Below are positions 5,318 through 9,363 of a DNA stretch of 11,128 nt, piece by piece (the first letter of the stretch is position 1; the number at the start of each line of letters is the position of its first letter). The translations under genes were made by a program, and so were the position numbers. The DNA is from Candidatus Zixiibacteriota bacterium (GTDB lineage: Bacteria; Zixibacteria; MSB-5A5; GN15; JACZUZ01), in NCBI GenBank assembly GCA_022563625.1, contig JADFNA010000020.1, forward strand, positions 1-11,128, read 5' to 3'. A model generated the notes under the pieces. That model was not told the DNA's origin. It did not search any database and saw nothing but the letters and a program-made list of their open reading frames with translations.

Positions 5318-6445
5318 TTAAATGGCTATCTCCACGATGCGGTACTTCTTGTAAAATCTGGCGCCGAGAGATTTGGCCAGATGGTTCATCAAGTCATTTG
5401 TTTCTAATATCCAGGACAGTTCGGATGTCTCATATCCTTCGCGAACGCCGTTCTTGAACGTCTGCATGTGCATCAGTGTATCGATGCCAACTTTGCGGTA
5501 TTCCGGCAGGATACCCATCGTGATTGTCCGCAGTCCACGGATTTTTCTTCTGATTTTCGTATGCCAGAATAGTTTCAGCGCTCCGAACGGCAGCAATTTT
5601 CCGTCAAGATACCTGAGCGCCTGGTTAAAATCCGGCAGCGAAAGTGAAAACCCGACTGCTTTTGAGTCAACGAAGGCAATCAGCGACAGTTGCGGATCAA
5701 TAATCTGCTTCATCTGCTTGGCTGAGTAGCGGAACTCCGCGTCACTCATAGGGACAAAACCCCAGTTTTTCTCCCAGGCTTTATTGTATATCACTCGGAC
5801 CAGTTCCACATCCTCATCGAAGCGACTCATATTCACCGGACGGATCGTGACCCGGCTTCGTTTTGCAAGCCGTTCTGCAACACGCCAGATGCGCTCCGGC
5901 TGCGGATCAAAACGGCTCATGCTGTAAGCATTGAGGTCCATCACTTTTTCCATACCAAAAGATTCCGCCATATGCGGCTGGTATGGGCGGTTATAAGGCA
6001 TTAATAACACCGGGCGCTCACCAAACCCTTCAATCAGAAACCCGCATTCATGATTGAGGCTGAGACTCGCCGGGCCGCGCATTTTTTTCATGCCCTCCTG
6101 TTTAAGGGTGATAAGCGCGACTTTCAGCAAAGCATGACCGACCGTTTCATCGTCAATCGTATCAAAAAAGCCAAAAAAACCGACCTGCTCATCGTGCATT
6201 TCATTGTGGGCATAATAAACACAGGTGGAAATCCGCCCCACACTCTTTCCATCGCGTTGCGCCAGAAACAATTTCACACGAGCTCCGCTGAAAAAGGGAT
6301 TTTTGTTGGGACTGAGGAAGTCTATTCGCTCGCTGTCCAACGGACGCACATAACAGGAATCGTTTCGATAAAGTCTGGTTGGAAAAAGCACAAACTCCTT
6401 GAGCAGGCGCGGAGTATCAACTTCGATGATTTGGGTATCGGCCAT
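5318..6445 (-). CDS. GNAT-fold acyltransferase-like protein, candidate ceramide synthase (bCerS-like)
   Basis: A 375-residue cytosolic protein with no signal or membrane span. An N-terminal half carries VGFFGFFDTID (88-98), GPASLSLNHECGFLIEGF (124-141) and LLMPYNRPYQPHM (147-159); the C-terminal half has a GNAT-type acyl-CoA loop, MGILPEYRKVGIDTLMH (310-326), so two tandem GNAT-like folds are likely. From family knowledge, large proteins of this kind are usually annotated only as GNAT N-acetyltransferases, and the bacterial ceramide synthase described in Caulobacter is, as I recall, also an acyltransferase of this superfamily. Its position 84 bases downstream of an SPT-like gene makes N-acylation of a long-chain base the leading hypothesis. 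The ATG at 6443-6445 has no strong Shine-Dalgarno. The GNAT fold is fairly secure; the ceramide role is inference. Confidence 0.75.
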   Translation of the reverse strand: MADTQIIEVDTPRLLKEFVLFPTRLYRNDSCYVRPLDSERIDFLSPNKNPFFSGARVKLFLAQRDGKSVGRISTCVYYAHNEMHDEQVGFFGFFDTIDDETVGHALLKVALITLKQEGMKKMRGPASLSLNHECGFLIEGFGERPVLLMPYNRPYQPHMAESFGMEKVMDLNAYSMSRFDPQPERIWRVAERLAKRSRVTIRPVNMSRFDEDVELVRVIYNKAWEKNWGFVPMSDAEFRYSAKQMKQIIDPQLSLIAFVDSKAVGFSLSLPDFNQALRYLDGKLLPFGALKLFWHTKIRRKIRGLRTITMGILPEYRKVGIDTLMHMQTFKNGVREGYETSELSWILETNDLMNHLAKSLGARFYKKYRIVEIAI

Positions 6446-6529: not shown

Positions 6530-7774
6530 TCAGCCCGCCGGGGATAAAACCCCGGTGGCGCGGCCGACTTTTTCAAGAATTTCGAGGACCCGGTCCAGAC
6601 ATTCATCGGTCAGGGTAGCGGTATACGATGTTCGAACAATCTCGCGGCCGGCCGGCACGGCTGGCGCAATTATCGCATTGGTAAACACTCCCTTATCCAA
6701 GAGCATTCTCCAAAACTTCAACGTTCTCACCTTCTCACCTATGAGGATAGGCACAATCGGCGTTTCTGTTTTGCCTATGTTATAGCCCAGCGTGCGCAAT
6801 TCTCGGTGCATCCGATGGCAAATTTTCCACAGGCGTTCCCGCCGTTCAGGCTCGGACTGCATAATCTCGAGAGCCTTGAGCGCTGCGGCGGCGTTTGACG
6901 GAGGGATGGAAGCCGAGAAGATCATCGCCCGGCCGAAATGTTTGACAAAATCAATCACTTTGGCGTCCGCGGCAATAAACCCTCCCAGAGAGGCGAATGA
7001 CTTGGAGAATGTGCCCGATGTGATGTCGACATCGTTAACCAATCCGAAATGTGACGCAGTTCCCGAACCGTTCTCGCCCAAGACTCCGATTGCATGCGCA
7101 TCGTCAACATACACACGGGCGCTGAATCGTTTGGCAAGCTCCACCAGACGTGGGAGTTTGATTATGTCGCCCTCCATCGAAAACACCCCGTCAACGATAA
7201 TCATAATCCCGCCCCGCACTCCGCCTTCGGAGACTCGAATCAAGGTGCGTTCCAGATCGTCCATGTCATTGTGCTGAAACTTGGCGACTTTTCCAAAGCT
7301 CAAGCGACAGCCGTCAATAATACAGGCGTGATCGGCGCGATCAATGACAAGTGTGTCGTTCTTATCTGCCAGACAGGAGATGGCGGCGAGGTTGGCCTGA
7401 AACCCGGTCGAAAAAACTAACGCCGCTTCTTTGCCCATAAATGCGGCCAGCTTGTGTTCCAATTCATTGTGTAAATCGATAGTGCCGTTGAGAAAGCGCG
7501 AACCCGTGCAACCTGATCCATACCTTCGCGCGGCGGCGGCGGCGGCTTCCTTGACACGCGGATCGTTGACCAGTCCCAGATAGTTGTTGGACCCGATCAT
7601 TATTACCGGTTTGCCGTCGAGGATAACCTCATCACCAAGCTCGGATGAAATCGAATGGAAAAACGGATAGAACCCCGCTTCTCGAACTTCGTCAGCTTCG
7701 GTAAAATTACGACATTTGGCAAACATGTCGCCGATCATCTGCTCTAAGTCTTTTTCAACCTGCAAGTTAGTCAT
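6530..7774 (-). CDS. Serine palmitoyltransferase-like PLP enzyme (alpha-oxoamine synthase family)
   Basis: A 414-residue fold-type I PLP enzyme that condenses an amino acid with an acyl-CoA or acyl-ACP. Landmarks: Asn64-Tyr65 (SNNYLG), GSGCTGSRFLNGT (86-98), His149 (DHA, expected to stack on PLP), DGVFSMEGD (195-203), Asp224 and His227 (VDDAHAIG), TFSKS with Lys258 as Schiff-base lysine, and PAVPAG (371-376) followed by Arg381 in IVRTSY, the position used by serine palmitoyltransferase to bind the substrate carboxylate. From memory of family members, GSGCTGSRFLNGT and the C-terminal PAG...R region match Bacteroides and Sphingomonas SPT better than KBL (2-amino-3-ketobutyrate ligase) or BioF. 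SPT makes 3-ketosphinganine from serine and an acyl thioester. The ATG at 7772-7774 has GGGAAAG immediately upstream. It is first of three minus-strand genes. KBL remains the main alternative. Confidence 0.85.
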   Translation of the reverse strand: MTNLQVEKDLEQMIGDMFAKCRNFTEADEVREAGFYPFFHSISSELGDEVILDGKPVIMIGSNNYLGLVNDPRVKEAAAAAARRYGSGCTGSRFLNGTIDLHNELEHKLAAFMGKEAALVFSTGFQANLAAISCLADKNDTLVIDRADHACIIDGCRLSFGKVAKFQHNDMDDLERTLIRVSEGGVRGGIMIIVDGVFSMEGDIIKLPRLVELAKRFSARVYVDDAHAIGVLGENGSGTASHFGLVNDVDITSGTFSKSFASLGGFIAADAKVIDFVKHFGRAMIFSASIPPSNAAAALKALEIMQSEPERRERLWKICHRMHRELRTLGYNIGKTETPIVPILIGEKVRTLKFWRMLLDKGVFTNAIIAPAVPAGREIVRTSYTATLTDECLDRVLEILEKVGRATGVLSPAG

Positions 7775-8013: not shown

Positions 8014-8043
8014 TTGACAGTGTCATCCCTCACCCTCCATAAT
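8014..8043 (+). promoter_or_regulatory. Promoter with overlapping palindrome for small transcript 1
   Basis: TTGACA (8014-8019), an 18-base spacer and CATAAT (8038-8043) predict a start near 8050. A perfect palindrome, TGACA-G-TGTCA (8015-8025), overlaps the -35 box and could be an operator half-site pair. Confidence 0.5.
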
Positions 8044-8049
8044 CCAACT

Positions 8050-8185
8050 ACACCGGCGCTGTGGAAGAATAAGTTCGACTTTAAATTAGAGGTTGTTTAC
8101 CTGAAAGTTCGGAGTCTCGTTTTGCGAGATTTCGATCCCTGCCCACCCGGTCGCTGGTGTTGTGAGGGCGCCAGCGACTTTTTTT
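8050..8185 (+). ncRNA. Predicted small RNA 1 (about 136 nt)
   Basis: The unit is defined by a promoter ending at 8043 and an intrinsic terminator at 8150-8185, with no convincing ORF wholly inside. An internal hairpin forms around 8113-8133 (TCTCG/CGAGA core extended by A-U and G-U pairs). The 5' end, ACACCGGCG (8050-8058), can pair with CGCTGGTGT (8152-8160) over nine positions with one G-U. That pairing competes with the terminator stem, so the RNA may have two folds. It matches no tRNA, tmRNA, SRP, RNase P or 6S pattern I could recognise. It may be a trans-acting sRNA or an attenuated leader; the next gene is about 580 bases away. Confidence 0.5.
8150..8185 (+). terminator. Strong intrinsic terminator of small transcript 1
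   Basis: GTCGCTGG (8150-8157) pairs perfectly with CCAGCGAC (8171-8178) and is followed at once by seven T residues (8179-8185). It is one of the two clearest terminators in the window, yet no protein gene precedes it on this strand. Confidence 0.85.
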
Positions 8186-8424
8186 ATACCCCTGATCCAG
8201 ATTTTGGCGCGCTTTTCACCCATTGGCGGATTACCGGTTCCAGAGAAACATAACTCCCGGAGGACCCATGTGACACACGCGGACACTCCCGGGCTGTGAC
8301 TGATATGACCATGATTTGGCTCGAAAAGCTACTCCTTTTGGCTGAATATGTCGCTCCACTGTGAATAACTTCATAACTCATTGTATTGCAAGGATATACC
8401 TTCGCTGATTTTGACGAATATCTC
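8186..8424. other. Non-coding stretch between the two small transcripts
   Basis: No gene is supportable. A GGAGGA (8259-8264) is followed by an ATG directly abutting a TGA (8268-8273), and a short AAAAG/CTTTT inverted repeat occurs near 8325-8340. Neither has a clear role. Confidence 0.4.
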
Positions 8425-8452
8425 TTGACATAGTTCGCGGAAGAGTTATATT
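8425..8452 (+). promoter_or_regulatory. Near-consensus sigma-70 promoter for small transcript 2
   Basis: A perfect TTGACA (8425-8430), a 16-base spacer and TATATT (8447-8452) predict a start near 8459. This is the strongest promoter by eye in the window. Confidence 0.65.
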
Positions 8453-8458
8453 CTTTAT

Positions 8459-8537
8459 GCAATCGGAAAGTGATCTCTCTGTGGATTACCTTTCATCGTC
8501 CTCCCAGGAAAGAGCAATCTTCCCTGGGATTTTTTTT
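8459..8537 (+). ncRNA. Predicted small RNA 2 (about 79 nt)
   Basis: A strong promoter and a strong terminator bracket about 79 bases. Hairpin 1 pairs GAAAG-TGAT (8466-8474) with ATTA-c-CTTTC (8485-8494): nine pairs with one bulged C and one G-U, closing a 10-base loop, CTCTCTGTGG. Hairpin 2 is the terminator stem. Two hairpins ending in a poly-U tail is a typical bacterial sRNA design. An ATG at 8457 opens a 30-codon frame, but it runs through the terminator and lies at or before the predicted start of transcription, so a peptide is unlikely. An attenuating leader of pgsA, about 230 bases downstream, is an alternative. Confidence 0.6.
8502..8537 (+). terminator. Strong intrinsic terminator of small transcript 2
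   Basis: TCCCAGG (8502-8508) pairs with CCTGGGA (8523-8529), with extra A-T pairing at the loop side, and eight T residues follow (8530-8537). Confidence 0.85.
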
Positions 8538-8737: not shown

Positions 8738-8766
8738 TTGACCGGCGCGGCTGACCGGGGTACTTT
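8738..8766 (+). promoter_or_regulatory. Possible promoter of the pgsA-pgpA-cinA operon
   Basis: TTGACC (8738-8743), a 17-base spacer and TACTTT (8761-8766) would start transcription near 8773, just before the ATG at 8776, leaving almost no leader. TGACCGG also occurs twice here (8739-8745, 8752-8758). The -10 is weak, and the GTG at 8767 would be upstream of that start. Confidence 0.3.
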
Positions 8767-9363
8767 GTGCGTGCCATGAACACTCCCAACAAGCTCACTA
8801 TCTTGCGCATTCTCCTTTCGCCGGTATTCATAGTGCTTTTCTTGGATGACAGCCTGTATTTCCGGCTGGGGGCGCTGTTGGTGTTCATTATTGCGGCTGC
8901 CACTGACATCGCCGATGGCTATCTGGCTCGGCGGACGGGCGTTATCACCCGTTTTGGGACCTTCATCGACCCGCTGGCCGACAAGATTCTGGTTTCATCG
9001 GCGTTTATCGCTTTTGTCGCGCTGGATTACGCGCGAGCCTGGATGGTGGCGGTGATAATTGGCCGGGAGTTTCTGATTACCGGTCTCAGGTCGCTGGCGG
9101 CCTATCAGGGGACGGTAATCTCATCGAGCCCGGGGGCGAAAATTAAGACCGCCATGCAGATGATCTCGGTGGCGCTTATTCTGGTGTATATCAATGTCGA
9201 ATCAATTTACGAATATCGCGGCGAGACTATATCGCTATTCCCGCCCGAACAGGCCAAAGTTGTCTTCGACTGGATGCTGGGAATCACAGCCGGTGTCACT
9301 GCGCTGACTGGAATCGAATATGTTGTCCGGTATTATCCGGCGCTGAAAACCATTTTGCGCTAA
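8767..9363 (+). CDS. pgsA: CDP-diacylglycerol--glycerol-3-phosphate 3-phosphatidyltransferase
   Basis: Converts CDP-diacylglycerol and glycerol 3-phosphate to phosphatidylglycerol phosphate and CMP, the committed step to phosphatidylglycerol. The 198-residue protein is an integral membrane protein of the CDP-alcohol phosphatidyltransferase family. The full active-site signature is present: D47-x2-D50-G51-x2-A54-R55-x8-G64-x3-D68-x3-D72, which binds metal and CMP. Several hydrophobic spans surround it (about 11-28, 34-46, 75-110, 128-143, 167-185). The family-typical start is ATG 8776 (MNTPNKLTILRILL), but GTG 8767 lies six bases after GGGG, a better Shine-Dalgarno distance; the choice changes only three residues. 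It is followed nine bases later by pgpA, the next enzyme of the pathway. Confidence 0.95.
   Translation: MRAMNTPNKLTILRILLSPVFIVLFLDDSLYFRLGALLVFIIAAATDIADGYLARRTGVITRFGTFIDPLADKILVSSAFIAFVALDYARAWMVAVIIGREFLITGLRSLAAYQGTVISSSPGAKIKTAMQMISVALILVYINVESIYEYRGETISLFPPEQAKVVFDWMLGITAGVTALTGIEYVVRYYPALKTILR

Follow-up and report, generated by a model that had tools for sequence, protein, structure and literature searches.

The window, an 11,128-nucleotide stretch of DNA, very probably contains a genuine small RNA (sRNA) gene, extending on the forward strand from a promoter at 8425 to a terminator ending at 8537. Comparison with relatives strongly supports the initial annotation of this locus as an sRNA with its own promoter and terminator, as judged at the level of sequence. 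The best reading is that of a new RNA family, without an Rfam match, of an already known kind, i.e. an independently transcribed intergenic sRNA. We favor, with fair confidence, an independently transcribed noncoding Zixibacteria sRNA of ∼80 nt, most likely acting in trans by Hfq-independent base-pairing; taken by itself, the proposal that the sRNA works mainly by base-pairing stands somewhat better than even. The order comprises four families (f1–f4 below), and the window belongs to f1.

Promoter and Transcript Boundaries

The initial annotation described a TTGACA-16-TATATT promoter, which is present in the window: the −35 element TTGACA (8425–8430, forward strand) and the −10 element TATATT (8447–8452, forward strand) are separated by a 16-nt spacer and predict a +1 position at ∼8459. 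The −35/−10 pair agrees with the consensus at 11 of 12 positions and ranks among the two best of 12 promoter-like sites in a scan of the window. Since shuffled windows contain 7.9 ± 2.9 such sites, the promoter alone says little, and it is conservation across families, not window statistics alone, that raises the feature above chance. The −35 element lies 34–35 nt 5′ of the start in 37/37 aligned f1 and f4 copies, and the TA...T of the −10 element is well kept across the f4 copies. Each T of the TTT preceding the −35 element is kept in 91–97% of f4 copies, suggesting a strong promoter.

The predicted transcript (79 nt, 8459–8537, forward strand), its start placed by the distance from the −10 element and by where conservation sets in, begins with GCAAUCGG. 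In the f1 and f4 alignment the onset of conservation coincides with the predicted +1, and the flanks show no such conservation; the two families have in common TTGACA, the TA...T −10 element and, from +1, GCAATCGGAAAG. The eight-T terminator and the ∼79-nt transcript are located where they had been annotated. Comparison among genomes defines, as far as sequence can, the promoter, the terminator, the boundaries, the copy number, and an inheritance of the RNA apart from its neighbors.

Fold of the RNA

The 79-nt transcript has a predicted folding energy of −25.3 kcal/mol (z = −2.6; 2/200 shuffles fold equally well). Its best fold does not reproduce the 9-pair hairpin with a 10-nt loop that had been described; hairpin 1 (8465–8494, forward strand) instead has 11 pairs, one mismatch, and the 6-nt loop CUCUGU, and its fold varies by family. 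It is followed on the same strand by the linker AUCGUCC (8495–8501), which is similar in f1, f2, and f4 and mostly unpaired, with its last bases weakly paired in f4, by a terminator hairpin with covarying pairs (UCCCAGG...CCUGGGA, 8502–8529), and by a tract of eight T (8530–8537). The sRNA terminator is absent from the list produced by a simple terminator scan of the window, probably due to the internal mismatches of its stem.

The first alignment had 37 rows and excluded a truncated second copy in one genome (G047, locus L071); f2 copies were added later. In the terminator helix, 98.0% of 407 cells are paired, and 17 cells, in 5/11 pairs, are changed on both sides. None of 500 shuffles reaches either the paired fraction or the count of double-change cells, and 20/500 reach five double-changed pairs. 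The covariation in relatives proposed as a check of the annotation was accordingly found in the terminator stem but not in hairpin 1, where none of the pairs assigned by RNAalifold is changed on both sides. Hairpin 1 is formed from GAAAG and a CUUUC located after GAUUAC in f1, from CGGAAAG and an earlier CUUUCUG in f4, and from GCAACG and UGUUGC in f2. As compared at the sequence level, it is a hairpin rebuilt family by family, with no single conserved structure.

These differences bear on the suggestion that a pyrimidine-rich loop of hairpin 1 pairs with ribosome binding sites, which the comparison does not support: the loop sequence CUCUCUG differs even among the three f1 sequences, the hairpin itself differs in f4 and f2, and the f4 CUUUCUG sits inside a stem. 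Loop variation among relatives rules out the hairpin 1 loop as a conserved seed. The part that is both similar and mostly unpaired across f1, f2, and f4 is the linker [UC]AUCGUC; because the linker alone has both properties, the hairpin 1 loop is not a conserved contact site, and AUCGUC is the better seed candidate. The 5′ end of the transcript is unpaired in f1 and f4 only.

In the proposed mechanism, for which we infer transcription, start point, pairing, seed, and partner, a sigma-70-type promoter would drive a ∼80-nt transcript ending at the intrinsic terminator, and the sRNA would base-pair in trans to mRNAs without Hfq. The linker [UC]AUCGUC between hairpin 1 and the terminator would serve as the seed, the 5′ end GCAAUC, which is free in f1 and f4, may act as an additional pairing region in these two families, and the sRNA may have a protein with an RRM domain as its partner.

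Distribution and Conservation

A covariance model detected the RNA in 57/80 genomes of the order, with three of four genomes positive in f1, five of seven in f2, and 49 of 54 in f4 (E values of 4e-15 to 1e-24 for f1 and f4 and of 2e-9 to 2e-8 for f2); it was found with this model in none of the 15 f3 genomes. When the 60 nearest genomes were searched at the DNA level, two further f1 genomes and the f4 genomes included showed strong matches. The eight f1, f2, and f4 genomes without a match are each assembled in 320 to 580 contigs, and in three of them (G002, G013, and G019) a full pgsA was likewise not found. There is one strong copy per genome, with two in one fragmented assembly. That assembly (G047) carries two near-identical sRNA copies at the ends of contigs C246 and C171 (L068 and L071), probably reflecting strain variation rather than duplication.

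In f4 the first 46 nt of the transcript, hereafter the core, are nearly invariant. Among 34 f4 copies there are two versions of the core; 33 copies share one, and a single copy has the other. By contrast, PgsA, encoded at 19 of these loci, shows identities of 54–97% (median 70%). GTDB species contigs, a set that overlaps with the 80 genomes, were scanned with a pattern that is blind to the f2 type, and 47 loci were returned. Of these, 42 have TTGAC upstream: 40 carry the 46-nt core exactly, one is of the f1 type, and one is a variant. The other five lack both promoter and terminator and are chance matches. In viral contigs no exact match to the pattern was found, and carriage by viruses was set aside on this basis.

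Beyond the order, across 132 genomes of the phylum including these 80, four of the 52 others matched at E ≤ 0.1 under strict filters, the best at 0.011. A wider model run without strict filters on 36 genomes (15 from f3, eight others without the RNA, and 13 from other orders) yielded matches in 17 of them at E ≤ 1, the best at 1.5e-4 in G070. Of these matches, ten were inspected; none combines promoter, core, and terminator, and most, including that in G070, are plain terminators. One f3 match (L174, E 0.05) consists of 18 nt that resemble the 5′ end, with neither TTGACA nor a terminator, and looks like chance.

Rfam 15 gave no match in the window even at E ≤ 1, and none at the gathering threshold for 14 related loci. 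A tRNA identity for the sRNA locus was rejected.

Genomic Neighborhood and pgsA

The gene downstream of the sRNA is pgsA (8776–9363, forward strand; TIGR00560 above cut-off), the first gene of pgsA-pgpA-cinA. The RNA could in principle be a cis-acting leader or attenuator of this operon, in keeping with its position 5′ of pgsA-pgpA-cinA, in the same orientation, at 27/42 neighborhood loci. However, a promoter belonging to pgsA itself (TTGACC-17-TACTTT, 8738–8766, forward strand) immediately precedes the start codon and leaves 9 nt to the ATG at 8776. The distance from the sRNA start to the start of the pgsA frame varies between 161 and 3126 nt, several loci have a further gene in between, and at nine loci there is no pgsA within the at least 2.5 kb available downstream (six more are too short to tell). 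Moreover, 12/15 f3 genomes have a full-length pgsA match, against 0/15 with the RNA. We therefore consider a role as pgsA leader highly improbable. In line with the annotation, and as read from sequence, the kept terminator, the separate pgsA promoter, and the nine loci without pgsA argue against a single long transcript reading into pgsA. The comparison of synteny with pgsA, proposed as a check of the annotation, thus shows a same-strand downstream pgsA at 27/42 loci, at varying distance, and none at nine.

Upstream of pgsA a TTGAC lies at −36 to −38 in 20/22 loci of f1 and f4 and, in f2, near −50 in 5/5 loci, as read from a table (a looser automatic count gave 23/27). The short spacing between pgsA promoter and start found in the window at 8738–8776, which may make the pgsA mRNA nearly leaderless, is similar in f1, f3, and f4 relatives.

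Upstream of the RNA, gene content differs between families. In f4 the longest member of the upstream cluster (L081:3825–7499) is a vitamin B12-dependent ribonucleotide reductase (NF005736); this class II enzyme gene, nrdJ, is found upstream at 25/34 f4 loci, in the same direction at nine and divergent at 16, and some of the remaining nine f4 loci, those without nrdJ, have too little upstream sequence. At the eight f1 and f2 loci, the upstream neighbor is a relative of the BioF/Kbl-type enzyme of the window. The varying gene order around it implies that the RNA is a separate gene, mostly inherited in place.

The BioF/Kbl-type enzyme itself (6530–7774) has serine palmitoyltransferase as its best NCBIfam match, below the cut-off, making it a possible sphingolipid gene. 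For the neighboring protein at 5318–6445, no Pfam or NCBIfam family was matched.

Candidate Partners, Coding Potential, and Targets

Hfq was not found in 11 genomes, and RRM_1 proteins are present in 15/15 genomes tested. The main rival to base-pairing is a protein-binding RNA, in which the core would bind a dedicated protein, e.g. of the RRM type, and act as a scaffold, decoy, or stable ribonucleoprotein. The invariant 46-nt core exceeds what a pairing seed usually needs, and protein binding would also fit this observation: loops as well as stems are unchanged in 33/34 f4 copies. The prevalence of RRM proteins points the same way, as does the failure of the pairing tests with neighboring genes described below. 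However, hairpin 1 is rebuilt in three families, where a fixed binding site should hold its shape, and the linker is better kept in sequence than in structure. On balance we regard protein binding as possible and clearly the less probable account.

CsrA was found in 73/79 genomes of the order, including 44/44 of those with completeness ≥90% and contamination ≤5%; it was not found in the window's own genome, which is 68% complete. The RNA might thus be a small CsrA decoy, with the two GGA triplets of the core binding CsrA. Each of the 37 aligned transcripts has at least two GGA triplets (in counts that include a few letters beyond the T tract), compared with 335/10000 single-base shuffles of the f4 core. 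However, the fuller ANGGA motif occurs in just 2/37 aligned transcripts and in the single f2 sequence examined, the first GGA lies within a stem in f4, and decoys of the CsrB type carry many sites (PMC7652899). A decoy role is accordingly improbable. Since Hfq was not found in the 11 genomes searched and the decoy fit is poor, base-pairing via the linker is favored over the CsrA decoy.

A broader possibility, which we rate as rather unlikely and below protein binding as such, is that of an order-specific global RNA, its core kept nearly unchanged over 34 genomes, forming a ribonucleoprotein in which an RRM-type protein or CsrA replaces Hfq. If true, this global RNA would stand at the center of a post-transcriptional system so far undescribed for the phylum.

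The locus could alternatively be a short leader peptide gene, which in f4 would correspond to an 8-codon GTG...TAA frame present in the three f4 copies checked. This frame is absent from the three f1 copies checked, the f2 frame stops after three codons as seen by eye, and there is hardly space for a ribosome binding site; no coding frame is common to f1 and f4 in the six of 37 transcripts checked (three from each family). Of the readings considered, a leader peptide is the least credible, with a very small probability.

Returning to base-pairing as the preferred reading, searches for targets employed the exact 12-nt complement of the linker (GACGATRTTAGG), which occurs at 29 places outside the sRNA in 79 genomes, versus 25 for a reversed control (both counted by hand from a table). 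Recurrent places form three groups, of five, four, and two; two of these, judged by eye rather than by a family search, look like coding motifs of valyl-tRNA synthetase and, in antisense, of a protein kinase. None of the recurrent places lies at a gene start, as far as open frames show.

Pairing with the starts of neighboring genes was compared with that of shuffled cores; these tests are weak, as is the complement search. None of 20 pgsA starts (from 27 loci, seven being dropped due to an unfit start motif), none of 19 nrdJ starts, and none of 13 starts of a neighboring gene without assigned function paired better at p ≤ 0.05. In the latter two sets the f4 core was used at every locus and start codons were guessed.

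Relation to Known Small RNAs

A search of open-access papers found no study of sRNAs in Zixibacteria (the spelling Zixiibacteriota gave unspecific results); the one paper returned appears to concern the mouse gut. Bacteroides is not known to encode Hfq. The FopS/GibS sRNAs of Bacteroides thetaiotaomicron are bound by the RRM protein RbpB, and FopS is described as ∼65–70 nt long, with a seed region that is unpaired and a terminator of the intrinsic type, and as deposited in Rfam (PMC11697453). The Zixibacteria sRNA resembles FopS/GibS in being short, with an unpaired stretch and an intrinsic terminator, and RRM proteins occur in Zixibacteria too. In contrast to the multicopy FopS/GibS family, it is single copy, and its linker lies between two hairpins; it has no Rfam match.

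The C-rich sRNAs of Firmicutes (RoxS/RsaE and FsrA; PMC8216469) likewise present an unpaired stretch as the proposed contact, and the linker-terminator junction in f1 reads CGUCCUCCC. However, the C-rich part of the Zixibacteria sRNA lies mostly within the terminator stem, the anti-Shine-Dalgarno sequence is not kept in f4 or f2, and there is no Rfam match. With decoys of the CsrB/RsmZ type (PMC7652899), the shared features are the presence of CsrA in the order and the two GGA triplets in the core; unlike in those decoys, the GGA sites are few, the first is in a stem in f4, and most are without ANGGA.

A near-constant RNA in a lineage where Hfq is undetected gives the study of RNA regulation in these bacteria a defined starting point, and its predicted boundaries and covariance model can be tested in existing metatranscriptomes.

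A Neighboring Hairpin and Terminator Unit

The initial annotation also noted two units in tandem in the same gap. A neighboring unit with a conserved hairpin and a terminator does exist (8104–8186, forward strand), but its sequence is different and it is found only in f1, and it was thus rejected as a sister or relative of the sRNA studied here. In a search of 60 relatives with positions 8014–8186, strong matches were confined to G001 and G003, over 8104–8189, so the promoter at 8014 lies outside the conserved part. The hairpin has the same 11 pairs in all three f1 sequences. It shows an A-U/G-C exchange between relatives, and downstream of it come a C-rich linker (AUCCCUGCCCACCCGG) and then a strong terminator. 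This unit is probably a second, younger small RNA.
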